54,489 nucleotides of DNA from a virus. The stretch covers positions 1 to 54,489 of the IMG/VR virus record IMGVR_UViG_3300037427_001697, one strand, 5' to 3'. The stretch's first letter is position 1. Each line of letters begins with the position of its first letter. The translations under genes were made by a program, and so were the position numbers. Positions 2,988-42,914 of this stretch are shown piece after piece. The notes beneath the pieces are model-generated. The model ran no database searches and was not told the origin of the DNA. It saw only the letters and a program-made list of their open reading frames with translations.

Positions 2988-3142
2988 TAAACCACCCTTT
3001 TTAATTCGCACTAAGTTTAATCGTTTATACCTTTCTATTTCCCAAAAAAATGGCCGGAATTTTTTTTCAGCATAACCCTTTAATTTCTCAAAAAATATGG
3101 GGTAATTTATTTGGCACTAGCGTTCTCATTTTTTTCTATAGA

Positions 3143-3152
3143 TTTATATAAA
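3143..3152 (-). promoter_or_regulatory. Candidate TATA box of the leftward virion operon
   Basis: The self-complementary sequence TTTATATAAA lies about 155 bases upstream of the first leftward virion gene. It is the best archaeal TATA-like element in the gap. The long leader between it and the first start codon holds no clear gene. Confidence 0.4.
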
Positions 3153-3385
3153 CAGAATAAAATGATATAATTTAAATATAAACGGCTGGCTGTTTGAATT
3201 AAATGCTAATTGTTTCACGATTAAGATTAAATGTTTAATATATTATTGTTTATCAGTATTATCCTCAGTATCTCTTATTATGGTTAAAGTAGTGGCCAAA
3301 CTGCTATAAAGTTTAAATTTAATGGTTCAAAATAGGTGGTTTAGAACGATTTCATTTAAACTTGTATAAATAAAAAATTTTGATA

Positions 3386-3404
3386 CAAAGCCATATGGTT
3401 GTAT
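3386..3404. promoter_or_regulatory. Composite palindrome copy 1 (degenerate)
   Basis: CAAAG is joined directly to the core CCATATGGT, and the CTTTG arm is replaced by GTATA. This is the weakest of the ten copies and lies leftmost, in the non-coding gap. Confidence 0.45.
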
Positions 3405-3615
3405 AACAGGATATGCAAAATGCATAAAGGGCTATTATTCTGAAGATTGTAGATTGATTGTTTATAGCGGTTAATAGATGAATAAAAAAGGCATTACGCA
3501 ACTGTTCAATGTTTAATTCTAAAGGCTATATCCTTCGCCATTAATGCCTCTATTCAATGTTTCGTGATTATGCACTATGAATAGTCTCGCTGATGTTCTC
3601 ATAAGCCTCATAACA

Positions 3616-3634
3616 ACCATATGGTAATGCTTTG
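3616..3634. promoter_or_regulatory. Composite palindrome copy 2
   Basis: Perfect core ACCATATGGT (3616-3625), spacer AATG, then CTTTG. The left CAAAG arm is absent. It lies just beyond the end of the basic-protein gene and its hairpin. Confidence 0.7.
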
Positions 3635-3643
3635 CACTTACCG

Positions 3644-3665
3644 CAACTAAGCGGGGAGTTTTAAC
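3644..3665 (-). terminator. Hairpin over the stop of the basic-protein gene
   Basis: GGAGTT and AACTCC form a short perfect stem around the stop codon of the leftward gene ending at 3661. Other genes in this array also end in a hairpin. Whether it terminates transcription or stabilises the RNA end is not known for archaeal systems. Confidence 0.4.
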
Positions 3666-3918
3666 TCCAAAGGCTTGATAAAGATGCATTACCTTTAACT
3701 TTCTTATTTTTCATCTTCTTGACTCTCGCCTTAATTTGTGTTGGAGTTTTATATCCATTGAATCTAACTTGAGCATATGAATTTCTGCTAAAATTAGTTG
3801 GGTCTTGCCACAACTTTTTCAATTCTCTTCTACGCTCTTGTTTCAAACCAGCCATTAGTTTTTGTTTGTTTGAATTATTCGCAACTCTTTTTAGTCCGTG
3901 TTTTTGTGCTTTTCTCAT
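3661..3918 (-). CDS. Small highly basic protein
   Basis: An 85-residue protein very rich in Lys, Arg and Asn (MRKAQKHGLKRVANN at the start, KARVKKMKNKKVK near the end). I chose the ATG at 3918 because AAGGTG lies seven bases upstream; a GTG at 3927 is also open. The charge suggests nucleic-acid binding. It resembles ribosomal-protein-like or condensing proteins in composition only, and no family is recognised. It may have a long leader starting near 4100 or 4370. Confidence 0.6.
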   Translation of the reverse strand: MRKAQKHGLKRVANNSNKQKLMAGLKQERRRELKKLWQDPTNFSRNSYAQVRFNGYKTPTQIKARVKKMKNKKVKGNASLSSLWS

Positions 3919-4400
3919 TTTAATCACCTTGAATAGAAGAAACTCCGCCTACTACATACATATCCGAATAACCGCACTACATCTTGTTTCCTTGTCTAAG
4001 TCAGCATGCCTCATTAGATTTGTTGCCCGTTTTGTGTCTTACTACGCTGTGTTTCGGCTTTGTTTCCATTAGTGTTTATGGCCACTAATAAACCAATGGA
4101 ATATAAAGGGTGGAGTTAGGATTTAATTGAATACCTAAATGAGCGTGGTGGTCGTAAAAGAATCAATCTTTGTGGATTTAACACACTCAACACCATATAG
4201 TCACCGATTGCTAATCTACGACCTTAATCACCGTAATTAACCAAGTCAGCGACTAAACCGCTTGATTAACCCTAAATGCGGGAAGCACCCCGATATGGCT
4301 ACCTTAAAACTCTCTTACAAATTCTTATTCAGTCATCTCCGTGTCCGATTGCCACCGAACAGTAATTGGGCTTACGGGGCGTATAGGGTTTAGTTATGTG
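3919..4400 (-). other. Long non-coding leader or structured RNA region
   Basis: No gene on either strand is convincing. Leftward TATA-like boxes lie at about 4102-4109 (TTTATAT) and 4376-4385 (TATACGCCCC). Inverted repeats occur at 4067-4099 (CCATTAGTGTTTAT with ATAAACCAATGG) and in the stretch 4226-4270 (TTAATCAAG with CTTGGTTAA). A leader or separate RNA of 150-450 bases before the basic-protein gene is likely. Confidence 0.4.
4376..4385 (-). promoter_or_regulatory. TATACGCCCC promoter-like box
   Basis: Read leftward this is TATACGCCCC, about 30 bases beyond a composite palindrome. The same box follows the palindrome at 7952 (7915-7924, leftward), and a rightward copy lies at 9575-9584. 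A variant (5958-5969) follows the palindrome at 6000. The fixed order palindrome then box suggests an upstream regulator site plus TATA element. Confidence 0.5.
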
Positions 4401-4435
4401 CAAAGCAATAACAACCATATGGTTCGGCAACTTTG
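4401..4435. promoter_or_regulatory. Composite palindrome copy 3
   Basis: CAAAG, eight bases, perfect core ACCATATGGT (4414-4423), seven bases, CTTTG. It lies between the leftward leader region and the rightward gene at 4485, so it could serve both. Confidence 0.75.
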
Positions 4436-4484
4436 TTCCGTCTCGACGAGCGAACCCTATTAATGGTTATAATCGCTATATACC

Positions 4485-4727
4485 ATGAGAGCAGTATTAA
4501 CGCAAGATTTGTTTAATGATAAAGCCGATAAGTTGGTAATTACGACCTGTGCAGATGGTTTATTCTGTATTCCGAAGATTACGGAGTTTATTCATGAGTA
4601 TGGATTGCATGCTAAACTTAACAGCGATTTTAGAGGAATGAAAATTACAATCGCAGGTGGCGAAAGGCTGACTAATGCTCTCCCAGCAATTCGCAAATTT
4701 ATCAGTAATCAAGACTATAAACGCTGA
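4485..4727 (+). CDS. Hypothetical small protein, opposite strand to its neighbours
   Basis: An 80-residue frame with a balanced composition (MRAVLTQDLFNDKADK at the start) and a plausible alpha/beta pattern: beta-like LVITTC and KITIAGG segments and helices at FIHEYGL and LPAIRKFI. It is the only rightward gene inside the leftward array. Palindrome copies lie on both sides and a perfect hairpin follows the stop. The Shine-Dalgarno is weak. Function unknown. Confidence 0.5.
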   Translation: MRAVLTQDLFNDKADKLVITTCADGLFCIPKITEFIHEYGLHAKLNSDFRGMKITIAGGERLTNALPAIRKFISNQDYKR

Positions 4728-4739
4728 TAAACACCGCTT

Positions 4740-4757
4740 GAACCGCTTTTGCGGTTC
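4740..4757 (+). terminator. Perfect hairpin after the rightward small gene
   Basis: GAACCGC, loop TTTT, GCGGTTC: a seven-base-pair perfect stem just after the stop at 4727. It lies between this gene and the leftward units, so it could act on either strand. Confidence 0.5.
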
Positions 4758-4767
4758 TCGCTTATCA

Positions 4768-4800
4768 CAAAGTTATACTCAACCATATGGTAGGACTTTG
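4768..4800. promoter_or_regulatory. Composite palindrome copy 4
   Basis: CAAAG, nine bases, perfect core ACCATATGGT (4782-4791), AGGA, CTTTG. Confidence 0.75.
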
Positions 4801-4806
4801 GATATA

Positions 4807-4818
4807 CCCCGAAGGGGG
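4807..4818 (-). terminator. Short GC hairpin with UUCG-type loop
   Basis: Read leftward, CCCCC TTC GGGG follows the stop of the gene at 4821-4970 almost at once; it can fold with a C(UUCG)G loop. It is followed by a composite palindrome, the same order seen after several genes in the array. Confidence 0.45.
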
Positions 4819-4820
4819 CT

Positions 4821-4970
4821 TTAAAAGCCACATTTCTCATTGACTAAACGCCAATATTCGTCATGTTCCTCATTTGTTAGGTGTGAAATGACATATTGCC
4901 ATTCAGCCTCATTTAAGTATAGTTCAATCGCTTTATCTTCTAATTCTCTTATTCTCTTATGTTTATTCAT
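4821..4970 (-). CDS. Small hypothetical protein
   Basis: A 49-residue frame starting MNKHKRIRELEDKAIEL, largely helical and charged, with AGGTGATA before the ATG. It lies 10 bases after the gene 4981-5268 and probably shares its transcript. No family recognised. Confidence 0.55.
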   Translation of the reverse strand: MNKHKRIRELEDKAIELYLNEAEWQYVISHLTNEEHDEYWRLVNEKCGF

Positions 4971-4980
4971 ATTATCACCT

Positions 4981-5268
4981 TCACACTAAAACCCAATCGC
5001 CTGTCCACGCTTCACCGTTCAAATACCATTGAAAATTCTTTTGATGAATTGAAACATTTGGCAAGCCGTTTAAGCGTTCTTTTGTTGTGTTGCTTTGCCA
5101 CCCACCGTCATTAATCCATAGTCCACCATCAGCGACATATTCAGCCAACATATTGCCGTGTAGGTATAATGCAACCGAATTATCAAATACCTTTACTTGA
5201 GTATTTCCTCGCTTGAATGTTTGTCTATTTCTTAAAGCCCTTATTGCGTCGCTTGTTATCTTTCGCAT
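4981..5268 (-). CDS. Hypothetical protein of a type common in marine phages
   Basis: A 95-residue protein. The pattern (start MRKITSDAIRAL, then YLHGNMLAEY, GGWQSNTTKERLNGLP and FQWYLNGEAW) matches a small family I recall as frequent in marine viruses, always without known function. The middle is beta-rich with many aromatic residues, and no membrane segment is visible. A composite palindrome lies 38 bases upstream. The family match is from memory, not a search. Confidence 0.7.
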   Translation of the reverse strand: MRKITSDAIRALRNRQTFKRGNTQVKVFDNSVALYLHGNMLAEYVADGGLWINDGGWQSNTTKERLNGLPNVSIHQKNFQWYLNGEAWTGDWVLV

Positions 5269-5305
5269 GACCTAATAGAAATAATCCATAGATAAGGTTA
5301 TGCAA

Positions 5306-5337
5306 CAAAGCCGTCATAACCATATGGTTGTGCTTTG
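5306..5337. promoter_or_regulatory. Composite palindrome copy 5
   Basis: CAAAG, eight bases, perfect core ACCATATGGT (5319-5328), TGTG, CTTTG. It is upstream of the gene starting at 5268. Read leftward, an ACCTTATC box follows about 10 bases after the far arm. Confidence 0.8.
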
Positions 5338-5351
5338 CCAATGAAATGAAA

Positions 5352-5366
5352 CCCCAACTTTGGGGG
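5352..5366 (-). terminator. GC hairpin after gene 5387-5893
   Basis: CCCCAA and TTTGGGG form a compact stem 20 bases past the stop of the leftward gene, just before a composite palindrome. Confidence 0.45.
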
Positions 5367-5386
5367 CTTCAGGGGCTAAAAGAGCA

Positions 5387-5893
5387 TCATTCCTCTTCTT
5401 CGCCTCCTTCTTTGGTTTTAACCGGAGGTGGGGTTAATGCTGGGATTTCACCGTTCATAGTGCCATCCCAACGACCTTCCTTATGGCCTTTTACAAGGTT
5501 ATCATAAGCAGTTTTCGCCATTTTCTCCGCATATTCTTGTATTGAAGTATATGCTCCACCTGTTCTACCGTGTGGCAGTATTACGGTCATTAGTAATTCA
5601 TCATTAGTAATACCCGCAAAGGCAGTATAAACCGCATTCTTCACAGAAACCGCATGTGCTTCCATTTCTTCCGGTAATGCTGATTCTCGGCCTCTTCTCG
5701 CTTTTGGGAAGTCTTCAAATAAACTCCCAATACTTCTTATTGCCGTCCAATATGTTGAACGCAAATCATCATTTCCACATGCATTACCTAATGTCATAGA
5801 TAACGCAATCGCTTGTCCAGCATCGCCTCTATCTTCACGATTCAGCCATACCTCTACTTCTCCTATATTCTTATTCCAATTTTCTATTTTCAT
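5387..5893 (-). CDS. Member A of a three-copy paralogous protein family
   Basis: A 168-residue protein, clearly paralogous to the one at 7330-7848. Shared landmarks are LRSTYWTAIRSIGS, ARRGRES, LPHGRTGG or VPHGRTGG, and a C-terminal KEGRWDG or KDGRFDG. A more distant relative is encoded at 8682-9149. The tail is proline-rich then poly-Glu. GAGGTG precedes the ATG. The family is not known to me. The helical core with conserved Arg and His suggests a nucleic-acid or nucleoprotein role, but nothing proves it. Confidence 0.75.
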   Translation of the reverse strand: MKIENWNKNIGEVEVWLNREDRGDAGQAIALSMTLGNACGNDDLRSTYWTAIRSIGSLFEDFPKARRGRESALPEEMEAHAVSVKNAVYTAFAGITNDELLMTVILPHGRTGGAYTSIQEYAEKMAKTAYDNLVKGHKEGRWDGTMNGEIPALTPPPVKTKEGGEEEE

Positions 5894-5957
5894 GTTTTTT
5901 CACCTCAAATAAAGTAAATCCGCACTTTTAGCCCCTGTGCCGAATATAGGGCTTGAT

Positions 5958-5969
5958 GGGCGGATAAGG
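5958..5969 (-). promoter_or_regulatory. Variant of the TATA-CGCCC promoter box
   Basis: Read leftward, CCTTATCCGCCC lies about 20 bases after the far arm of the palindrome at 6000 and upstream of the paralog gene at 5387-5893, with a 65-base leader. It resembles the boxes at 4376 and 7915. Confidence 0.4.
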
Positions 5970-5986
5970 TTGTAATTAAACAAGGG

Positions 5987-6018
5987 CAAAGCCATTACAA
6001 CCATATGGTCGTGCTTTG
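5987..6018. promoter_or_regulatory. Composite palindrome copy 6
   Basis: CAAAG, eight bases, perfect core ACCATATGGT (6000-6009), CGTG, CTTTG. It lies between the hairpin of the next gene and a promoter-like box. Confidence 0.8.
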
Positions 6019-6026
6019 TCTTTTCG

Positions 6027-6036
6027 GCCCGAAGGC
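6027..6036 (-). terminator. Short UUCG-loop hairpin
   Basis: Read leftward, GCC TTCG GGC folds as a tight C(UUCG)G tetraloop hairpin two bases past the stop of gene 6039-6308. Confidence 0.45.
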
Positions 6037-6038
6037 AC

Positions 6039-6308
6039 TCAAATTGGCATATTGTCTCTCCAACATTCCAATTCTTCCATCAACCAAGCATGGTTTCCTA
6101 CTTTTTCATGCATATCTGCCATAAGTTTCTTCATCTTGGTCGGAGTATTATTCCATGTTTCTTCGTCAATTCCATAATCTTCTTTGAGAGCAACCTCAAA
6201 CTTCTGTATTTTTTCTGCTTCCATGAATACTTCCATATCAGCAAAAAACTGCATATGTCCTTCTGTTCCTTCATAATCTTCTATCTTCGGTCTTCTCAAC
6301 TCACTCAT
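6039..6308 (-). CDS. Hypothetical acidic helical protein
   Basis: An 89-residue protein (MSELRRPKIEDYEG at the start), mostly helical, acidic, with several Met and Trp residues and no cysteine pair apart from one Cys near the end. It has its own upstream palindrome (6357) and downstream UUCG hairpin. The Shine-Dalgarno is weak. No family recognised. Confidence 0.6.
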   Translation of the reverse strand: MSELRRPKIEDYEGTEGHMQFFADMEVFMEAEKIQKFEVALKEDYGIDEETWNNTPTKMKKLMADMHEKVGNHAWLMEELECWRDNMPI

Positions 6309-6346
6309 GGTAATAGGTAAATAGCCCTATTTATCTTGGCTATTCA

Positions 6347-6375
6347 CAAAGTTACTACCATATGGTAATGCTTTG
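6347..6375. promoter_or_regulatory. Composite palindrome copy 7
   Basis: CAAAG, five bases, perfect core ACCATATGGT (6357-6366), AATG, CTTTG: the most compact version, 29 bases in all. Confidence 0.8.
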
Positions 6376-6382
6376 TATTTAT

Positions 6383-6392
6383 CCCCGAAGGG
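6383..6392 (-). terminator. Short UUCG-loop hairpin
   Basis: Read leftward, CCC TTCG GGG follows the stop of gene 6394-6747 immediately and precedes a palindrome. Confidence 0.45.
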
Positions 6393-6393
6393 C

Positions 6394-6747
6394 TTAATTC
6401 CCCACAAAGGTATGACCTTTGTAAGTTTCTGATTCTCTATCCCAATGAAAAACCTGAAACAGAACATCACATTTTGTTGATTCATGTAATTTGAAAGCCT
6501 CCGATAAAACAATTGTCAGGGCTTGACTTAATCCGGTGACATAAAGATTAATGCAATTTCCATGATTCCACATCAAGTCCAATTTTTCAGATGCGATTTT
6601 TCTTAGTGCTTTAAAGTCATTAGGATTTTCAATAGGTTCTGTAAAAATGTAATCTCCAACTCCTGTAATATCGTGCCTTCCTGCACACAGACCAACATTA
6701 ACTAAAACTCCTTCCCATTCTCCATCTCCTATACTCTTTGTAAACAT
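6394..6747 (-). CDS. Hypothetical alpha/beta protein
   Basis: A 117-residue protein. The second half reads as strand-helix-strand: INLYVTGLSQALTIVL, then KCDVLFQVFHWDRES. This looks like a small Rossmann-like or nucleotide-binding alpha/beta unit, but no catalytic motif is obvious. The start has several glycines (SIGDGEWEGVLVNVGLC). It forms a one-gene unit with an upstream palindrome and a downstream hairpin. Function unknown. Confidence 0.6.
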   Translation of the reverse strand: MFTKSIGDGEWEGVLVNVGLCAGRHDITGVGDYIFTEPIENPNDFKALRKIASEKLDLMWNHGNCINLYVTGLSQALTIVLSEAFKLHESTKCDVLFQVFHWDRESETYKGHTFVGN

Positions 6748-6784
6748 GGTTAAAGAAATATATCCCCTTAAAATAGGCTAATTA

Positions 6785-6813
6785 CAAAGACATTACCATA
6801 TGGTCTTACTTTG
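6785..6813. promoter_or_regulatory. Composite palindrome copy 8
   Basis: CAAAG, five bases, perfect core ACCATATGGT (6795-6804), CTTA, CTTTG. Read leftward, TAATTAG and TATTTTAA follow, a TATA-like stretch before the gene at 6747. Confidence 0.8.
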
Positions 6814-6818
6814 CTAAG

Positions 6819-6851
6819 ACCCTCACGATTTTTTAAAATCGGTCATAGGGG
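6819..6851 (-). terminator. Hairpin after gene 6859-7197
   Basis: CGATTTT and AAAATCG form an AT-rich stem inside a CCCCTATGA / GTGAGGG outer pairing, just past the stop of the leftward gene. Confidence 0.4.
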
Positions 6852-6858
6852 AACTTAT

Positions 6859-7197
6859 TCACCAATAATAAGTTCTTTCGCCATCATCAGCAAAATTATG
6901 ATAGCCGGACTCCATCGCCCTCATTCGCATTTCTGCTTTGTGTTCTTTGATGTGGCCGGTAATATCTTTTTGAGTATATTCAAAGGGTTTAGCAGTTTTA
7001 GCCCAATTATCCCAAATAGGTTTCAGCACTTCAAAATTATCTTCTTCTACTTGTTCTTCCGTCACATCAGCACTACAAACAAAATTATCCCATATGTAGT
7101 CCTCGCTGAAAAAATAGCGTAAGCCTGTATCTTCTTTACACCAATTATTATTATTATCTACTTGCATTTCAAACCATTTCCAAAAACTTCTTTTCAT
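6859..7197 (-). CDS. Hypothetical acidic Trp-rich protein
   Basis: A 112-residue protein with nine Trp residues (start MKRSFWKWFEMQVDNN, end GERTYYW). I chose the ATG at 7197: AAGGAG lies eight bases upstream, whereas the GTG at 7206 has no spacing. It forms a one-gene unit with its own palindrome (7267) and a TTTATAAA box at 7227-7234. No family recognised. Confidence 0.65.
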   Translation of the reverse strand: MKRSFWKWFEMQVDNNNNWCKEDTGLRYFFSEDYIWDNFVCSADVTEEQVEEDNFEVLKPIWDNWAKTAKPFEYTQKDITGHIKEHKAEMRMRAMESGYHNFADDGERTYYW

Positions 7198-7226
7198 TTT
7201 TATCACTCCTTAGTGCTACAAAGGCT

Positions 7227-7234
7227 TTATAAAC
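7227..7234 (-). promoter_or_regulatory. TATA box of gene 6859-7197
   Basis: TTTATAAA lies about 30 bases upstream of the start codon and about 20 bases from the arm of palindrome copy 9. It is the clearest example of palindrome-TATA-gene order. Confidence 0.5.
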
Positions 7235-7251
7235 GGCTATGGTAGTAATTA

Positions 7252-7285
7252 CAAAGTTAATCTCCTACCATATGGGTTTGCTTTG
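7252..7285. promoter_or_regulatory. Composite palindrome copy 9
   Basis: CAAAG, ten bases, core ACCATATGGG with one mismatch (7267-7276), TTTG, CTTTG. Confidence 0.75.
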
Positions 7286-7291
7286 CATTAA

Positions 7292-7307
7292 CCCCCACAT
7301 GGGGGGG
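7292..7307 (-). terminator. GC hairpin after gene 7330-7848
   Basis: CCCCCAC and GTGGGGG form a strong stem about 20 bases past the stop of the leftward gene, followed by palindrome copy 9. Confidence 0.5.
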
Positions 7308-7329
7308 CTACAGGGCTGAATCTGTAGTC

Positions 7330-7848
7330 TCACTCTTCTTCCGAAACCTCCATATCAGCCTTAGTAGGTCTTGGGGTTATTTGTGGAATACCGGCCTTAT
7401 TAACCGCTACACCGTCAAATCTTCCGTCCTTGATTGATTGCATCATATAGTTATGAGCAGATTTCTTGTAGTAAGCAACCAATTCGTCGTAGTTATCATA
7501 AACTCCGCCCGTTCTTCCATGTGGAACGATGACAGAAAGTAATAGTTCATGGTAGTCAGTAGGGATTTCCGCAAAAGCATCTATAACTTTTTGCTCCACA
7601 GTCGCCAAAACAATTTCCTGTTCTTCTGTCAATGTTGATTCTCGGCCACGACGGGCTGACGGAAAACCATCCATTGTTGAACCTATTGAACGAATTGCTG
7701 TCCAATAGGTGCTTCTTAATTCATCAGTATTTGCAGAATCTCCAAGAGTTAGAGATAGCATTACTGCTTGTAGGTTATCACTTGGGGGTTGATTTTCCGC
7801 CCAAACTCGCACTTTATTTGTATTTAATTTCCAATTTGCTTGTTTCAT
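7330..7848 (-). CDS. Member B of the three-copy paralogous family
   Basis: A 172-residue protein starting MKQANWKLNTNKVRVW. The ATG at 7848 has AAGGTG upstream and makes the length match paralog A (168 residues); the frame is open to 7956 but that extension is not supported. Landmarks are LRSTYWTAIRSIGS, ARRGRES, VPHGRTGG and KDGRFDG. It is the first leftward gene after the control region, while a third relative is the first rightward gene. The position suggests early expression or a role at the control region. Biochemical function unknown. Confidence 0.75.
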   Translation of the reverse strand: MKQANWKLNTNKVRVWAENQPPSDNLQAVMLSLTLGDSANTDELRSTYWTAIRSIGSTMDGFPSARRGRESTLTEEQEIVLATVEQKVIDAFAEIPTDYHELLLSVIVPHGRTGGVYDNYDELVAYYKKSAHNYMMQSIKDGRFDGVAVNKAGIPQITPRPTKADMEVSEEE

Positions 7849-7914
7849 ATTTTTCACCTTTTCGTTTGTTGGTAAAGCCACAGTTTCAGCCCTTGTAGCG
7901 ATATATGGCGTAAA

Positions 7915-7924
7915 GGGGCGTATA
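7915..7924 (-). promoter_or_regulatory. TATACGCCCC promoter-like box of paralog B
   Basis: Read leftward, CCATATACGCCCC follows palindrome copy 10 by about 15 bases. A second TATA-like stretch, CCATATATCG, lies 20 bases closer to the gene. Confidence 0.45.
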
Positions 7925-7938
7925 TGGTTGCCTTCATG

Positions 7939-7961
7939 CAAAGCAGAATGAACCATATGGT
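7939..7961. promoter_or_regulatory. Composite palindrome copy 10
   Basis: CAAAG, eight bases, perfect core ACCATATGGT (7952-7961). The CTTTG arm is replaced by a longer spacer and TAAAG. It is the rightmost copy and faces the control region. Confidence 0.7.
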
Positions 7962-8155
7962 TGTATTATATCGTAAAGCGCAGGTTTGGCTAAATAATCA
8001 CTATATATTCAAACAACAACAGGTTCAATTAATTGGGTCAGAATAAACTGCCAGCAGAAGAGGGTCTTTTTCAATTGGCCTTATATTAATTCATATTCTT
8101 ATTCATATACCTATATTATAGTAATCTAATCAATGTGTCTCATCGAAGCCAACAA

Positions 8156-8442
8156 TGAGACGAGACAGATGAGGGGGGAATCTTGGTAGTTATAGTGTAT
8201 AACTATAAAGAATATTAATACTTCTCATAATCTCATATATCTCATATCTATCTATCTATCTCTCTCTCTCTCTTGGGAGAGTATAAGAGGCATATTTAGA
8301 GAGAAATATATATGGGATTTTCATGAGACGAGATGAGACGAATTATTTTTCCCACTTCTCCGTAGATTCTTAGGGGTTATGGGTCATAACTCATTATTCT
8401 CATGATGAGACGAATGCGAGAAACATTGGAAAGTGTGAGACG
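8156..8442 (+). repeat. Five direct repeats of TGAGACG
   Basis: Copies lie at 8156-8162, 8324-8330, 8334-8340, 8406-8412 and 8436-8442. Several are extended to ATGAGACGA. Two near copies (GAGAC at 8162, and the inverted TCTCATCG at 8138) add to the cluster. The 10-base spacing of two copies is about one helical turn, fitting protein binding sites (iterons). Confidence 0.6.
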
Positions 8443-8624
8443 CAAAAGTTGTTTCATTGGCGAATCATTATAGTTAAATAATTTTAATTCATGTTATTAG
8501 ATTTAATTTAGAACATTTAATTTAATTTAGAAAAATGTGAAATAACCCCTACTTCTTTTAGGCCCGCCTCCAATTCTAATGAAAAACTTGTAAAAACCTT
8601 CATTGGCCATCAATGCTGAACTCC

Positions 8625-8634
8625 TTTATATATG
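8625..8634 (+). promoter_or_regulatory. TATA box of the first rightward gene
   Basis: TTTATATATG lies about 50 bases upstream of the ATG at 8682, leaving room for a short leader with AAGGAG. Confidence 0.5.
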
Positions 8635-8681
8635 GTAATCAATTGTCTAAAATAGCCCACAAGGGCAAGGAGTAAGATAAT

Positions 8682-9149
8682 ATGGATAACACACAATGGG
8701 ATAGCCTCGTAATAGAGGTTAGAGAATACCTTGAAGCAGACACAGGTTTAGATGCAGGACTTAAACAAGTCGTTGAACTAAACCTTCAAATCGGAACAAA
8801 CAACCCAAACGAAAGAGTAGCGGCTAAAGGCGCACTAAAGGCTCTTTTGAAGGGAAGAGACGGAACACCTTTCAAGAGAGGTCAAAAGTCAGCAGTTCCA
8901 GCAAGCGTTAGAGTATCAATTGACAAAATATGCGGAGTAGTAGAAGAAGCGGCTATGAATTATTATAACCACGACGCTATTATTGGCGCAATCACCATGA
9001 AACACATTAAGAGTGGTGGCGGTCATTATGATGATGCAAGCGATTATGCTTCGGCAGTTGTTAAGAGAACCCGTAATAACCTAAGTAAAATGTATAAAGA
9101 TGGCACTTGGGATGGAACGGTTGATTCTTTATTGGGAACGGCTGAATAA
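8682..9149 (+). CDS. Member C of the three-copy paralogous family
   Basis: A 155-residue protein with AAGGAG nine bases before the ATG. It is a more distant relative of the two leftward paralogs. It shares the central Arg-Gly plus Ser motif (FKRGQKSAVP), a His followed by Gly-Gly (KHIKSGGGHYDD), and the C-terminal YKDGTWDGT. It lacks their poly-Glu tail. It has its own TATA box upstream and a strong UUCG hairpin downstream, so it is probably transcribed alone and highly. Function unknown. Confidence 0.7.
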   Translation: MDNTQWDSLVIEVREYLEADTGLDAGLKQVVELNLQIGTNNPNERVAAKGALKALLKGRDGTPFKRGQKSAVPASVRVSIDKICGVVEEAAMNYYNHDAIIGAITMKHIKSGGGHYDDASDYASAVVKRTRNNLSKMYKDGTWDGTVDSLLGTAE

Positions 9150-18672: not shown

Positions 18673-19908
18673 ATGAGTAGAGAATGTAATTTAAATATAG
18701 CAAGACCTGACGATTCAAGGATAACAGATACGACAACAATAAGATGTGAAACACATGATTTTGGAAATCAAAGGTCTGTTGGTATTCAAAGAGGAAAGAA
18801 AGACCCTGTTCATGCAGGATTAGAAGATTTTTGGAGAGGTATTATTTCCCCAAGAAATAGATATAGTAGTGGATTTGGTTACAAATTTAATCATGTTGTT
18901 ATGGTTAAAACCTGCCCTGTTGTATTAAGCCGAGAAGGTATTAGGTATCAACTAAATGGTAAATCATATAGCCTTGCTACCATATGTTCAGCATTAGCAA
19001 GACTAACCTACAAATCTTGTTTTGAAGATAATCCGGAAGTATTGTTGAGTAGTTTGTATTCAACATTATCACTACCGGAAAATGTTAGATATTGTTTAGA
19101 GAATCGTGCGCCATATCATTTTATTCATGACTTTGAAAAAATAGAAGTTAGACTAAATGTTGTGCAAATAGATGATAATATGCTCGCTATGGAAATAAGC
19201 GACGGTATTTGGGGAGAAATAACCCCAAGACAATTAGATACTTTTTGTAATTTTTATCATCTTGGTAAATCAAGAGGTTCATGGAAAAAACTTGGCCCAA
19301 AATATTTATTCAAGAAACTATTGGGTAGAGAACCAACAACTGCTGAAAAGAAAGTTATGAGAGCATTTCTAATGCAGAACAGAACTCAAGATATGGTTGA
19401 AGAAAGAGCATTACAATTAGTAAAGGATTTATGCAATCAACATGATGGTCGCATTCATGCAGTTTATGATGAAGAAGGAATATTAACTACAATGTATGTT
19501 AGAGGTAGAGGCTACGATTGGAAACTAACTAATAACAGATATAAGACAGGAATACAAATGGTATCAACTTATATTTGGCAACCAAAGAAAGATGTTGTTG
19601 CTGAATTTGAAGAAAGCAATTGGATGCTTGGGAACATTAGTGTAGTTGAGGGAACAAAGTATTTCAATATCAATGAGAGTAATGAAGAAGATTTCAAGTT
19701 TTGGAGTGGGCCGATTTGTATAGACAATGTGGCGAATAATTCACCATTAGGCGACCAATTCGCAGGTAGAGCATTAGCACTTCTAAATGATTTAATAACA
19801 GTAAAAATGGTATCAACTATCAAGGGATATATGATACACGATGCGAATAAATATAGGATTGAGGGGAATGAAATTAATTTGCGAAGAATGCAGAAGCCAA
19901 AACAATGA
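18673..19908 (+). CDS. Large hypothetical protein, no recognised domain
   Basis: A 411-residue soluble protein starting MSRECNLNIARPDDSR. There is a Trp/Gly/Arg-rich region (EDFWRGIISPRNRYSSGFGYK), and around residues 215-255 a helical LGREPTTAEKKVMRAFL that could be a DNA-binding helix-turn-helix-like part. The C-terminal half is beta-rich. GTGATA precedes the ATG. It overlaps the TFB gene by 41 bases. I recognise no family; the size and place next to TFB make it worth a structural prediction. Confidence 0.65.
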   Translation: MSRECNLNIARPDDSRITDTTTIRCETHDFGNQRSVGIQRGKKDPVHAGLEDFWRGIISPRNRYSSGFGYKFNHVVMVKTCPVVLSREGIRYQLNGKSYSLATICSALARLTYKSCFEDNPEVLLSSLYSTLSLPENVRYCLENRAPYHFIHDFEKIEVRLNVVQIDDNMLAMEISDGIWGEITPRQLDTFCNFYHLGKSRGSWKKLGPKYLFKKLLGREPTTAEKKVMRAFLMQNRTQDMVEERALQLVKDLCNQHDGRIHAVYDEEGILTTMYVRGRGYDWKLTNNRYKTGIQMVSTYIWQPKKDVVAEFEESNWMLGNISVVEGTKYFNINESNEEDFKFWSGPICIDNVANNSPLGDQFAGRALALLNDLITVKMVSTIKGYMIHDANKYRIEGNEINLRRMQKPKQ

Positions 19909-20716
19909 GTTTAATGAACGGCTTGGCGAAACAGTTTGTAAAGACTGTGGACTTGTTTTGATAACAGAAATGTTTGAAGAGACAGTTCATATTCTTGATT
20001 CAACAGGTGAGTTAGTTCATTCACCGGACAGAAATAAATTAGGTTCTGTAATAACGGGTAAAGGTTCTTTCAAGTATAATAAGTATGGAATGAATAGTGT
20101 TTTACCTAAGCATATCCAAAATGGAATTAGATTCTGTAATATGGTATTAGCAAATGTAGCACCTAATAGTTCTCTCCAAGCGAGAGTTGAAAAACTATAC
20201 ATTGATTGTCTAAATAGAAGCCTATTTGGAAGAAGCCAATACGAAGCAAGAGCAACCGCAGTTGTTTATTATGCACTAAAGGAGAACGGAACTCCGCACA
20301 CTATCAAAGATGTATGCGCTGAATTTAGCCCTAATGTCAAATCAGTTAAAAGATTAGTAAGGAAGATTAATCAGTTTCATAGAAATAGTATTAATTACAA
20401 ACCGATTAATCCGCAGTATGCTTTGATACAGACATTAATAAAAATAACAGATGACATAACTTTTAGAAGTCAATGTATTCATGTGTTAGAGTATTTTGAA
20501 ACAGTAGTCTTAAACTCTACCTTCAATAAAGGTAGGTCATACTACGCCTCTATTATTTGGATAACGGCTAATGTATATGTTAAGGATAATATTACTAAAG
20601 AGAGAATATGTGAGAAAACAGGATTCTCAAGATGGATTGTTTGGAAACAAACAAAAGCAATACTGAATTTAATCGGTGTTGAATTAGTTGAAGAACTAAA
20701 AGGAAAAGAATTATGA
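19868..20716 (+). CDS. tfb: Archaeal transcription initiation factor TFB homolog
   Basis: A 282-residue factor like archaeal TFB / eukaryotic TFIIB, which binds TBP at promoters and recruits RNA polymerase. An N-terminal zinc ribbon (Cys5, Cys8, Cys24, Cys27) is followed by a linker with TGKGSFKYNKYG and two cyclin-like repeats, whose cores are RATAVVYYALKENGTPHTIKDV and ASIIWITANVYVKDNITKERI (landmark residues only). The last repeat ends in a likely helix-turn-helix (CEKTGFSRWIVWKQ) that would read the BRE element. GAGGGG precedes the ATG. A viral TFB could redirect host polymerase to viral promoters such as those listed here. No viral TBP is seen. Confidence 0.85.
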   Translation: MKLICEECRSQNNEFNERLGETVCKDCGLVLITEMFEETVHILDSTGELVHSPDRNKLGSVITGKGSFKYNKYGMNSVLPKHIQNGIRFCNMVLANVAPNSSLQARVEKLYIDCLNRSLFGRSQYEARATAVVYYALKENGTPHTIKDVCAEFSPNVKSVKRLVRKINQFHRNSINYKPINPQYALIQTLIKITDDITFRSQCIHVLEYFETVVLNSTFNKGRSYYASIIWITANVYVKDNITKERICEKTGFSRWIVWKQTKAILNLIGVELVEELKGKEL

Positions 20717-20967: not shown

Positions 20968-21531
20968 ATGAAAAGAAAAATATTAGTAATTGGAGCAGGT
21001 GGTATTGGGAGTTTCTTGATACCGCTTTTAGATAAAGTAGAACTGTATAACATATCAGTGGCAGACCCCGATACGGTAGAAACAAAGAATCTACCATATC
21101 AAAACTTTACAGAAGAAGATGTTAATTTATACAAAGTAAGTAGTATGAATGCTCGGCATAACAGTGTTAGTAAGGCGAGTCAATTTCCTATTCTAACAGA
21201 AAAACAAATGCAAGGATATGACTTGGTTATTTGTTGTGTAGATAACTTAGGCGTGAGAAAGACTTTATACAACACAAGTATTAAATGGCTTGATTTACGA
21301 GCGCAAGGCAGGAATGCCGCTTTAGTAAGTTATAAGGCCGACCCGAAAATGTATGATATGCTTTTAGCGGGTGAAGAACGGTCTTTTTCTTGTCAAGGTG
21401 ATTCTTGGAATGGTTCAAATGAGGGAGTTCACTTTATGCAAGTTGCTATTGCAGGAATGGGCGCACAATGGACTCAAAGATGGTTTCAAAATAATGATGA
21501 AGTTAGAGATTATATGGTGGTGAATCTATGA
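20968..21531 (+). CDS. E1-like adenylyltransferase (ThiF/MoeB/UBA superfamily)
   Basis: A 187-residue protein made of little more than the Rossmann core of E1 enzymes, which adenylate the C-terminal Gly of ubiquitin-like proteins. Motifs: GAGGIGS (9-15), ADPDTVETKNLPYQ (32-45) matching ThiF DxDxVxxxNLxRQ, and CCVDNLGVR (89-97). The arginine of NLxRQ is Tyr44 here. A cysteine after the core (SCQGD, Cys142) could form a thioester. ThiF is about 250 residues, so this is a short form lacking the usual zinc cysteines. GGAG precedes it. It overlaps the Myb-like gene, with the JAMM gene next. Confidence 0.75.
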   Translation: MKRKILVIGAGGIGSFLIPLLDKVELYNISVADPDTVETKNLPYQNFTEEDVNLYKVSSMNARHNSVSKASQFPILTEKQMQGYDLVICCVDNLGVRKTLYNTSIKWLDLRAQGRNAALVSYKADPKMYDMLLAGEERSFSCQGDSWNGSNEGVHFMQVAIAGMGAQWTQRWFQNNDEVRDYMVVNL

Positions 21532-22670
21532 GTTGGATTGATAAATGGTCTAATCAAGAAATAGCATATGTTGTTTCAGCATCAGCAAGGCATGTATCTT
21601 GGGATAGAATGGCAAGAAACTTTAACAGAAAGTTTGACACAACTGTTTCGGGCAACACTCTTAAAAAATTATATAGAATGCTGACTGAAAATAATGTAGA
21701 TTATCCCCAAGAAGAAATTGATTTTATACATAAGTGCCATCATAATCTTATGACTGAAAAACAAACTATAATGGCTTACGGAGAAGTATTTGGTAAGCCT
21801 CTCAACATTAAAAGATGGGAAAATCTTTTGAAACAAACCCCATCGAAAGAAATTCAAGAGGCAATTAAACCTCAAAAAGAAAATAAAAATAAGGAAGTGA
21901 AAAATATGAAAAGAAGTAAATATACGAAAGAAGAAATTAAGCAAATAAGGGCTTGTAAAAGTGCAAAAGAAGCAAGAGTTCTTGCTAAATCATTTGGCAG
22001 AAACCCACCGGCAGTTGAACGCCAATGGTATATTGTTAGAAAGAAGCCTAAAAGCAGTTCTAAGAAAGAAAAACAAATGCAGACTATTAATGCCAAATTG
22101 CTTAAAGCCGGATTATCCGATAATAATGGCTATTCAAAGAAGCAAAGAGAATTACTTGGCCTTGATTATTGGCCTCCAAGAAGATTTGATATGGAATCTA
22201 AAATTGGTGATAAGATAACAAAGGAAGATGCAGAAAAGTTTGTAGCACTAAAGAATGCTCATATTAAAAATATGGGAACAAGAAAAAGAAGAACTGAATC
22301 TAAGTATTTAGATGTAGAAACAGTAAATCGTTCTATTGTTGTAAAGCCTAAGAAATCTAAAAAGGTTCTTTGGACAGAAGAACAAGATTTTGATATTCTT
22401 TGTAATTTTTATGAATTATCAATAGATGAAGCAAGAGAGAAATTCAATAAATCTTATGCTGAAATAGCAGGTAGATTAGAATACATCGTTGATAGCACAG
22501 AACCTCAACACCATTCAATGCTTATAGAAGCCTCTAAGGTCATTAACAAGCGTAAGGCTAAGTCGGCCAAGCCGTCAAAACCAAGCCGTAGAGAGCGAAG
22601 GATAGCAAGAAAACAGGCAAAATTACAGAAGAGAATTGATAAGATTAAGAAACAACTAAGGAGAGATTAA
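21528..22670 (+). CDS. Myb/SANT-like multi-repeat DNA-binding protein
   Basis: A 380-residue basic protein with at least three helix-turn-helix-type repeats, each starting with an aromatic residue and Glu pairs: WSNQEIAYVVSASAR (7-21), KYTKEEIKQIRACKS (near 130), and WTEEQDFDILCNFY (near 285). These recall Myb/SANT repeats. Linkers are Lys-rich and the C-terminus (residues 345-380) is extremely basic (RRERRIARKQAKLQKR). It overlaps the E1-like gene by four bases and the JAMM gene follows after one base. It may bind viral DNA or be a substrate or target of the ubiquitin-like pathway; that link is from position only. Confidence 0.65.
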   Translation: MSWIDKWSNQEIAYVVSASARHVSWDRMARNFNRKFDTTVSGNTLKKLYRMLTENNVDYPQEEIDFIHKCHHNLMTEKQTIMAYGEVFGKPLNIKRWENLLKQTPSKEIQEAIKPQKENKNKEVKNMKRSKYTKEEIKQIRACKSAKEARVLAKSFGRNPPAVERQWYIVRKKPKSSSKKEKQMQTINAKLLKAGLSDNNGYSKKQRELLGLDYWPPRRFDMESKIGDKITKEDAEKFVALKNAHIKNMGTRKRRTESKYLDVETVNRSIVVKPKKSKKVLWTEEQDFDILCNFYELSIDEAREKFNKSYAEIAGRLEYIVDSTEPQHHSMLIEASKVINKRKAKSAKPSKPSRRERRIARKQAKLQKRIDKIKKQLRRD

Positions 22671-41283: not shown

Positions 41284-42238
41284 ATACTTTGAGTTTGTTA
41301 AATCTCATAACAACCGAACTAATGTATATACTACCGTTTATGATTTTGAACATTTTACAGAAACTATGCCTGTTGAGGATAGTGTAATTATTGATAGAAT
41401 CTTTTTAGATTTTGATGCTCATGAAGATAATTTAGATATGGCTTGGAGAGATGTTAAGGTTGTAATGGAAATGGTTATTGAAAATAGTTATTTACATACT
41501 TTATTTTTTTCAGGTCGTGGATTTCATTTATTCTTATTTGGTAAGACAACAAAAAACATGAGAAATGTTCAAACCTTATTTAGAGAAATAAAACAATTGT
41601 TAGATTTAAAAGTCGGTAAGAAAAATTCATTAGATGAAAGAGTTGGACAGAAAACAAGATTGAGAAGAGTTCCCAATACTGTTAATATGTCCTCTTCCGA
41701 TGGTAAAGGAAATGCTCGGTATTGCATACCTTTAACAATTGATGACTTACGATTAGATATTGAAGAAATACTAACAATGGCTCTTGAGCCACGCCTTTTA
41801 CCGTTCAAAAAAAGCGGGAAAAAAGAGGTAGTTTTCCCCGAAGCACCCCCTATTGAGGCTATGGAAGGCTCGGTTTCTGTGCCTTCAACAGTTGGTAATT
41901 TGCCTATGTTGCCTTGTTTGCATAATGCCGTTATGGTAGAAAATCCTACGCATTTAGCAAGAGCATATTTGGTATCTTGGTATCGAGATTTATTATCGGG
42001 CTATACTGATTTAGTAAATCAAGCAGATAAAACGCAAGTGCATAAATTAGTAGTTGAAGAATTAGAAAGAGTATTTGCTGAATCCGATTCAGTATGGTTG
42101 GATTGGGATAAAAGTGAAACTATCAAACATTCTAAATTTACTGTATATAATAATTACAACACCCCTCATTGTGATAAACTGATTAGTGATGGGTTTTGTG
42201 TTGGGAAATGTTGGAGGTATTCAAATGCTAATAATTGA
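41198..42238 (+). CDS. Archaeo-eukaryotic primase, small- and large-subunit features in one chain
   Basis: A 346-residue primase. The catalytic part has FLDFDA (Asp-x-Asp metal site), FSGRGFHLFLFG (the conserved S-G-x-G-x-H motif) and RLRRVPNTVNMSSS near 160. The C-terminal half resembles the iron-sulfur part of PriL: LPCLHNAV, NPTHLARAYLVSWYRDLL, then HCDKLISDGFCVGKCW, four cysteines in all. A PriS-PriL-type fusion makes RNA/DNA primers without a separate large subunit. GGAGG precedes the ATG at 41198. It lies among replication nucleases. Confidence 0.85.
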   Translation: MKFPRMVWAGSQVKNAPQMKRKKMTTKNEYFEFVKSHNNRTNVYTTVYDFEHFTETMPVEDSVIIDRIFLDFDAHEDNLDMAWRDVKVVMEMVIENSYLHTLFFSGRGFHLFLFGKTTKNMRNVQTLFREIKQLLDLKVGKKNSLDERVGQKTRLRRVPNTVNMSSSDGKGNARYCIPLTIDDLRLDIEEILTMALEPRLLPFKKSGKKEVVFPEAPPIEAMEGSVSVPSTVGNLPMLPCLHNAVMVENPTHLARAYLVSWYRDLLSGYTDLVNQADKTQVHKLVVEELERVFAESDSVWLDWDKSETIKHSKFTVYNNYNTPHCDKLISDGFCVGKCWRYSNANN

Positions 42239-42914
42239 TTCAAGAGAAAAGTCCAAGTTAGCCGACTTAGTAATGAAAAAGGCAAAAGCCCTATTCATTC
42301 CACATGAGAAAAAATGGATTGAGATAGGCGACTATGTTTATGATGATGTTTGCTTTGAAGCAAAATCCACTATTGATTTCATCGGGTCTGTAATGTCAAA
42401 AAGGCTTTGGACTCAACTTGATAACATGGATAGACATTACCAAACCAATGTAGTAATCATCTATGGCTCGCTTAGTGAGGCCATACTAAATATAATTGAA
42501 CATTCCAGCAGTAAATTGCCCGTAGCCGCAAGAAGCGTGATGTTAAACAATAAGTTTCTTGGAGCATTAGGGAGAATAGTATTAGACACGGACATAAAAC
42601 CCTTTTGGGTAAAAACAGAAGAAGAAGCGGCATCAATAATAACAGCAGTAAGTAAAATGAAACCAAGAACAAGAGAAACAATAGCACCACAAGTATTTAA
42701 AAGATTAACAACAGATGATTTAAGATTAGATTTATTAACAAGTATTAAAGGAATATCAGTAAAAAAGGCAAAAGAACTAATAAAGCAATTCGGCTCTATT
42801 ATGGAAATTGGTGAATGTTCAGTTTTTGAACTGCAAGCAATTGAAGGTATTGGGGAAACCTTAGCCAAAAGAATAATCTCCACATTAAACTCGGAAGAGA
42901 AGGTGAAAATATGA
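42225..42914 (+). CDS. XPF/ERCC4-type structure-specific nuclease with helix-hairpin-helix
   Basis: A 229-residue protein. The nuclease domain has IIDSREKS, IEIGDYV and FEAKSTIDFIGS (the ERKxxxD motif, here EAKxxxD). The C-terminal (HhH)2 has LTSIKGISVKKAKELIKQFGS and LQAIEGIGETLAKRI (landmarks only). This is the short XPF layout without helicase, like crenarchaeal XPF, which works with PCNA on forks and flaps. TTGGAGG is upstream of the ATG at 42225. It overlaps the primase by 14 bases and the next gene by four. Confidence 0.88.
   Translation: MLIIDSREKSKLADLVMKKAKALFIPHEKKWIEIGDYVYDDVCFEAKSTIDFIGSVMSKRLWTQLDNMDRHYQTNVVIIYGSLSEAILNIIEHSSSKLPVAARSVMLNNKFLGALGRIVLDTDIKPFWVKTEEEAASIITAVSKMKPRTRETIAPQVFKRLTTDDLRLDLLTSIKGISVKKAKELIKQFGSIMEIGECSVFELQAIEGIGETLAKRIISTLNSEEKVKI

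Follow-up and report, generated by a model that had tools for sequence, protein, structure and literature searches.

Here, we report that a composite palindrome repeated between small genes of a virus is very probably the joint of a cassette array, with exchange of gene units taking place inside its core. The stretch under study is the linear virus record IMGVR_UViG_3300037427_001697, analysed over its whole length of 54,489 bases (the window), whose genes fit a magrovirus, one of the tailed viruses associated with Poseidoniales; its hosts are presumably these abundant marine archaea. The element combines a core, CCATATGG, with outer CAAAG and CTTTG arms. In our reading, to which we assign a probability of about 70%, it is a cassette-array joint coupled to a promoter and a terminator, where DNA structure guides the exchange at the core.

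The core CCATATGG begins at positions 3391, 3617, 4415, 4783, 5320, 6001, 6358, 6796, 7268 and 7953 and occurs nowhere else in the window, so that the original prediction of ten motif sites confined to 3386-7961 held, the cores spanning 3391-7960. As had also been counted, eight of the ten copies carry the perfect palindromic 10-base core ACCATATGGT; allowing at most one mismatch, this sequence has 12 matches in the window against 1.54 expected, the maximum of 100 shuffles being 6. The full arm-core-arm form had been claimed for all ten copies, which was too generous: both arms are present in seven, and three copies are partial. At 3391, a special end element, CAAAG directly abuts the core and the right arm is missing, 3617 has no left CAAAG and 7953 has no right CTTTG. 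The right spacer measures four bases in seven copies, as first described (3617, 4783, 5320, 6001, 6358, 6796 and 7268), and six bases at 4415. The elements are as follows.

3366..3403: anchor at the array end, AAATAAAAAATTTTGATACAAAG-CCATATGG-TTGT, with CAAAG abutting the core and a T-rich run on the outer side
3616..3634: junction element 2, lacking the left CAAAG
4401..4435: junction element 3, with a right spacer of 6, flanked by units that point away from each other
4768..4800: junction element 4, where two convergent units meet, with a terminator on each side
5306..5337: junction element 5, whose left half-site can fold as GGTTAT..CAAAG..ATAACC (5296-5321)
5987..6018: junction element 6, whose left half-site folds as GGTTGTAAT..CAAAG..ATTACAACC (5968-6002)
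6347..6375: junction element 7
6785..6813: junction element 8
7252..7285: junction element 9, with the core ACCATATGGG
7939..7961: junction element 10, at the far array end, lacking the right arm

Related arrays differ from each other precisely at this element. When 118 arrays were compared by blastn, 438 of 1639 homology-block ends fell 0-20 bases past a core centre, and the 50 bases before it held about 30. At 70 joints with a shared unit on one side and an unshared unit on the other, identity is 0.90-1.00 as far as the core, drops to 0.40 with the first base that follows GGT and is about 0.3 farther out. Since a low outer identity was the criterion for choosing these joints, the position and the sharpness of the drop are evidence, not its presence; the block-end histogram is free of such selection. 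Where both neighbours are shared (87 joints), identity exceeds 0.9 for about 30 bases each way. Because old and new DNA meet inside ACCATATGGT, a unit takes both of its half-sites along.

Single arrays show what these averages mean. Units 2 and 0 adjoin in array L209 and are separated by unit 34 in L210, the flanking halves being unchanged; L205 carries unit 29 between units 0 and 2, which are neighbours in L206 and L209. Arrays L207, L084 and L123 differ by single units and by an order swap, the former being compared with the latter two, and L061 and L071 form a further pair with clean gain, loss or reordering of units. Outside the array, the window is collinear with L204, its closest relative. 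Inside it, the unit at 6005-6361 has the partners of 6800-7271 and 7272-7956 as its neighbours in L204, identity steps from 93% to 81-85% and on to 95% at elements, and the units range from 99 to 78% identity with flanks averaging about 95%. At the level of aligned genomes, we thus see units gained, lost and reordered and occurring in both orientations, with the breakpoint inside the palindromic core, as the originally proposed check on unit swapping between genomes had asked; this supports the swapping of cassettes at recombination sites that had originally been offered only as an alternative. Misassembly at repeats was considered as a source of these differences and rejected, as joints share identical stretches of only about 10-20 bases, which would lie below the usual assembly word length.

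A sharp breakpoint could also be the product of passive shuffling, in which the element is a conserved promoter-terminator boundary, general virus or host recombination acts at short identity, and selection keeps intact units. This competes with a structure-guided mechanism, not with the element being a cassette joint, and we rate it only a little short of even odds. It has difficulty with breakpoints lying within 10 bases although the spacer between terminator and TATA-like box spans several tens of bases, and with the near absence of block ends in the 50 bases before the core.

What does a unit consist of? It comprises a half-site, a TATA-like box, one or two small genes in most cases, a terminator-like hairpin and an inverted half-site. 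The distance from the core end to the ATG, taken over 292 units with genes supported by homology, is mostly 45-65 bases, with a second group at 90-112 bases. The closer-spaced units carry an A/T-rich, TATA-like stretch centred near -25 from the ATG, as would be expected if these archaeal-type transcripts are leaderless. Behind the stop codon, and ahead of the next core, comes a G+C-rich hairpin. Genes point toward the anchor in 133 cases and away from it in 74, and the classified elements comprise 145 of promoter-terminator type, 42 of promoter-promoter type and 21 of terminator-terminator type. The order of hairpin, core and TATA-like box of the next gene, as it was first described, therefore applies to most copies of the window and fails at two: 4415 has a rightward promoter on one side and, on the other, the leader of a unit that points left, and 4783 lies between the terminators of the convergent genes 4485-4727 (+) and 4821-4970 (-), with a promoter on neither side. 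The persistence of the core at 4783 argues for the element as a marker of the joint, beyond any part in the promoter.

This arrangement bears on the original view of the copies as a regulon, in which a dimeric regulator on ACCATATGGT and the CAAAG/CTTTG arms switches all units and shuffling is a by-product. The preferred distance to the ATG, the TATA-like box, the gene-end hairpin and the gathering of all copies in one array fit such an operator, and the virus encodes a TFIIB-like factor (19841-20716) as well as a weak match to a D5-like regulator (21528-22670). As the main role, a regulon did not hold up. The 21 terminator-terminator elements, which separate convergent units and have no promoter, retain core and arms, with the CTTTG arm present in 97%; the arm-core spacing varies over 0-12 bases and keeps no single helical phase; and the half-sites are conserved as pairing, in variable self-complementary stems that a dimer operator does not need. 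We therefore consider an operator as the main role rather unlikely, a regulator possibly binding every copy in addition, and recombination sites are the best reading over a plain regulon.

One end of the array is distinct. The anchor, AAATAAAAAATTTGAAACAAAG-CCATATGG-TTGT with the arm set against the core, stands at one array end in 51 distinct arrays, and in 47 of these 51 no core lies beyond it. TTG follows directly to the right of the core in all 51 anchors, compared with 304 of 1223 other halves. The outer T-rich run of the anchor may end leftward transcription. Conserved non-coding blocks lie to the left of the anchor and include it (3078-3182 and 3313-3404), and they are kept in several relatives.

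Read outward from the core, a half-site has the form GGTnnn..CTTTG..n'n'n'ACC and tends to fold into its own hairpin, with a stem that differs between copies and pairs within a copy. An exact 6-base complement within 50 bases is present in 97 of 405 promoter halves, where swapped controls gave a mean of 14 (largest 24), and in 59 of 337 terminator halves, where they gave 8.3 (largest 17). For 8-base stems, the corresponding numbers are 32 against 1.6 in promoter halves and 17 against 0.5 in terminator halves, and the enrichment extends to all four Watson-Crick pair types. The pairing is strongest in divergent elements, where 30 of 78 promoter halves show it against 5.6 in the control; no transcript is expected to cross these elements, which argues for structure at the DNA level. 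This covariation suggests that the hairpins are probably under selection as DNA structures. Compared with a control that mixes promoter and terminator halves, the two sides of an element show no excess complementarity beyond the core, and we discarded a pairing of left and right half-sites with each other there. A preference for G-T over A-C mismatches in the stems slightly favours the CTTTG strand and is too weak to be used as strand evidence.

The divergent elements also bear on a function in RNA, whereby the hairpins would end or process transcripts between genes. The G+C-rich, terminator-like hairpins that adjoin the element on the gene-end side would suit this role; the pairing in divergent elements and the presence of the palindromic element in both orientations speak against it, and we regard it as very unlikely.

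How might the exchange proceed? We propose that the hairpins would fold while the DNA is single-stranded, during replication or recombination, and that their bases would mark the core for cutting or annealing. As the core is a common self-complementary sequence, any core could join any other. A virus enzyme, possibly an ERCC4/XPF-type nuclease, would then act together with the exonuclease and the ligase of the virus in single-strand annealing. Since the element holds promoter and terminator together, a newly arrived unit would be expressed without delay. Enzymes of the ERCC4/XPF family cut hairpin and flap junctions and trim flaps during single-strand annealing, which would suit a cut at the base of the half-site hairpin, i.e. 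at the core. Such a gene is found in all 18 array-bearing records searched, and in the window it is:

42186..42914, + strand: ERCC4/XPF-type structure-specific nuclease (PF02732, E 5e-15), the candidate actor

Several observations weigh against a structure-guided exchange. Tyrosine recombinases (PF00589) were found in none of 34 array-bearing or related records, while 14 of 14 controls were positive, and a host may supply such an enzyme in trans. Likewise, with positive controls in each case, serine recombinases (PF00239) and HUH Y1 transposases of the IS200/IS605 type (PF01797) were each absent from 30 array-bearing records, and RadA and Hjc from 18. With no dedicated enzyme of the searched families found, the role of the ERCC4 nuclease is a guess. 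An exact 6-base stem is present in only 17-38% of half-sites, and the arm spacing varies between them. Single-strand folding of four joints gave weak z-scores of -1.2 to -2.3, and two joints favour an arm-to-arm fold; for element 5, the predicted minimum-energy fold pairs the two arms with each other instead of forming the half-site hairpin. Because single-copy folding energies are only weakly better than those of shuffles, the case for structure rests on covariation, and covarying stems can also be produced by template switching at imperfect palindromes, even if selection plays no part. Finally, all relatives are metagenome assemblies.

The absence of a recombinase from the searched families also favours passive shuffling, for which PMC4503421 and PMC3950731 provide precedents at composite promoter motifs in the promoter early stem loops (PeSLs) of T4 and in the motif of HGTV-1; moreover, phage mosaics can come from relaxed homologous recombination (PMC3945230). 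It leaves the covarying half-site stems and the fixed anchor unexplained. That a dedicated, structure-guided exchange operates instead is a tentative view, clearly below even odds. Still less likely, in our estimate, is a separately evolved counterpart of the integron, in which an unrecognised or repurposed virus enzyme (e.g. ERCC4/XPF) would cut or anneal at the paired hairpins and insert self-expressed cassettes beside the anchor.

Two proteins were examined as recombinase candidates and dropped. The product of 864-1793 has a weak PHROG match to 'integrase' (E 0.034), which lacks credibility because the protein carries a zinc-protease-like HEAIH motif. The protein of family-0, the commonest cassette family, has an all-helical AlphaFold model (pLDDT 88) that found no match in the PDB (best E 0.35). 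One magrovirus family is described, in PMC10768690, as having members without an identifiable integrase or transposase.

Is the element common among related viruses? At least 119 IMG/VR stretches carry the composite pattern, and together they hold 616 cores in 1.02 Mb with about 16 expected; the count in relatives, proposed with the original prediction as a check, is far above chance. A reversed-pattern control gave 0 matches in all records but one. ACCATATGGT is found in 17 of 28 records related through the chaperonin; among those with listed positions, each has one tight cluster of 2 to 11 copies spaced about 0.03-1.2 kb apart. The relatives thus keep a single array at one locus. Several of the element-free relatives do not appear to span the locus: some (e.g. 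the 75-kb G002) also lack the neighbouring helicase gene, and another, G015, has it at the very edge of the record, which ends before the array. In cellular genomes, 15 stretches carry the pattern, none of them labelled Poseidoniales, and only one contig has several cores together with an anchor; we therefore rejected a host origin of the element. This contig, NZTP01000027.1 from an 'Altibacter' metagenome-assembled genome (L186), has seven cores and an anchor and is probably a misbinned magrovirus. Two different anchored arrays lie about 94 kb apart in the 184,733-base record IMGVR_UViG_3300021958_000021 (L074/L124/L015 and L110), which probably joins two magrovirus genomes in one assembly. 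In the array L211, an unchanged core is flanked by a variant arm (GGTTCACTTT.GGAACC): in some lineages, the arms drift and the core is kept. Neither the two family profiles consulted nor, by word search, the magrovirus survey PMC10160649 mentions repeats, palindromes or motifs; the founding magrovirus papers lie outside this coverage, and the element may have been described before.

The array adjoins a non-coding region (7962-8680) that lies next to the GC-skew minimum, holds CT/TATC runs and recurring GAGACGAG-like words, and is possibly a replication origin. The copies themselves could thus be replication or partition sites, such as origin repeats or packaging marks. They separate units, however, and their number and position track these units (2-11 per record) in no fixed iteron pattern, which makes this explanation the most improbable of those considered.

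The array of the window is divided by its elements into the following segments.

3395..3620: segment from the anchor to the first ordinary element, without a supported gene, 98.7% identical in L204
3621..4418, - strand: cassette with a manA-like RNA leader (4107-4361) and a small basic open reading frame (3661-3918)
4419..4786, + strand: cassette with the homology-supported gene 4485-4727 and the terminator hairpin 4740-4757
4787..5323, - strand: cassette with the genes 4821-4970 and 4981-5268, including the Kyano_Gp96 family (Pfam PF23790, E 6e-22)
5324..6004, - strand: cassette with the family-0 gene 5387-5893
6005..6361, - strand: cassette with the gene 6039-6308, found elsewhere in the array of L204
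6362..6799, - strand: cassette with the gene 6394-6747
6800..7271, - strand: cassette with the gene 6859-7197
7272..7956, - strand: cassette with the family-0 paralogue 7330-7848, 48% identical to 5387-5893
8682..9149, + strand: family-0 relative just beyond the array, 25% identical (E 5e-6), with 90 supporting homologues

Family-0 has 64 distinct array copies, 43 in one orientation and 21 in the other, and the family of gene 4485-4727 also occurs in both orientations relative to the anchor among other arrays. The manA RNA at 4107-4361 (-) matches Rfam RF01745 with 53.9 bits (E 5e-12), slightly below the gathering score of 55.2, and none of 25 other array loci has one at gathering level; this RNA is otherwise known from marine metagenomes, cyanophages and gamma-proteobacteria. 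The Kyano_Gp96 family gene at 4981-5268 (-) has relatives in 427 phage records at no more than 49.5% identity, otherwise in cyanophages and Pseudomonas phages, an apparent case, by homology, of sharing across viruses of different domains. Other arrays include mini-cassettes of about 95-125 bases (L027:7606-7893, L077:4206-4306, L076:9506-9601, L006:7925-8037, L023:8367-8485, L122:13410-13515 and L059:1114-1235), which contain a Shine-Dalgarno-like site and an open frame of 6-10 codons with an acidic end (MFDDDE, MYCDDE, MFEDDE, MYDDED, VYDDED or MFDEED). Several cassette proteins have EEE C-termini.

The assignment of the window to the magroviruses (order Magrovirales) follows the gene set published for these viruses, as given in PMC10768690 and PMC10160649. 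From this set, the window holds a split family-B DNA polymerase (PolB), a TFIIB-like protein (TFB), a clamp loader (RFC-S), a sliding clamp (a weak match), an ATP DNA ligase, the ERCC4 nuclease and a chaperonin. These and further genes of the window are, with start positions where no end is given:

9895, + strand: UvrD-like helicase
19841-20716, + strand: TFIIB-like protein
21528-22670: D5-like regulator, a weak match
23858, + strand: chaperonin
27167, + strand: ATP DNA ligase
31331, + strand: clamp loader
34880, + strand: sliding clamp, a weak match (E 0.0075)
35696 and 38611, + strand: split family-B DNA polymerase
39709, + strand: RecB/Cas4-like nuclease
41183, + strand: primase-like protein

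Three known systems resemble the array. The PeSLs of T4-like phages have been described as 'mobile regulatory cassettes' (Arbiol 2010; Comeau 2014, as relayed in PMC4503421). Like them, our element is a composite of promoter and stem-loop or terminator between small accessory genes, at which relatives shuffle genes. Unlike PeSLs, which carry a T4 early promoter for a bacterial sigma-70 RNA polymerase, it has an archaeal TATA-type box about -25 from the ATG in a virus with a TFIIB-like protein, breakpoints in a palindromic core, two covarying half-site hairpins and a single array with a fixed anchor end. Because of the TATA-like box and the magrovirus gene content with its TFIIB-like protein, we regard the element as working like a PeSL without classing it as one. 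In the haloarchaeal tailed virus HGTV-1 (Sencilo 2013), a TATA-like region and an inverted repeat precede most genes of one genome part and were likened to PeSLs (PMC3950731). This is the same combination in an archaeal tailed virus, with a different motif sequence, TTTTTATA..GTATACTCCTCGTGGCACGAGGAG..TATATAAA, and a single CCATATGG in the 49 kb examined; shuffling was a suggestion there, whereas here it is observed between genomes.

Integrons and CALINs, with their attC and attI sites and including archaeal ones (PMC9668308), share with our array the gathering of small genes at one locus and the precise gain and loss of units, and they resemble it in having a distinct fixed end and joints that may likewise be conserved in structure, seen here as covarying hairpins. 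In contrast to integrons, no IntI or other tyrosine recombinase was found, the crossover region is palindromic, each joint has two hairpins, and every unit brings a promoter of its own and can point either way. The anchor, whose right half (TTG) is constant, is attI-like in position. We thus file the element as a variant of the composite promoter-terminator shuffling motifs, neither an integron nor a PeSL proper.

Magroviruses occur widely in the surface ocean, and all that is known of them comes from metagenomes. If our reading is true, they own a standardised exchange platform at one locus for small genes, most of which have no assigned function. The precise joint would define the cassettes and allow their mining from metagenomes, and modular exchange in the accessory regions of viruses would become testable at base resolution. 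It would also raise the question of which enzyme moves cassettes in viruses without the known families.

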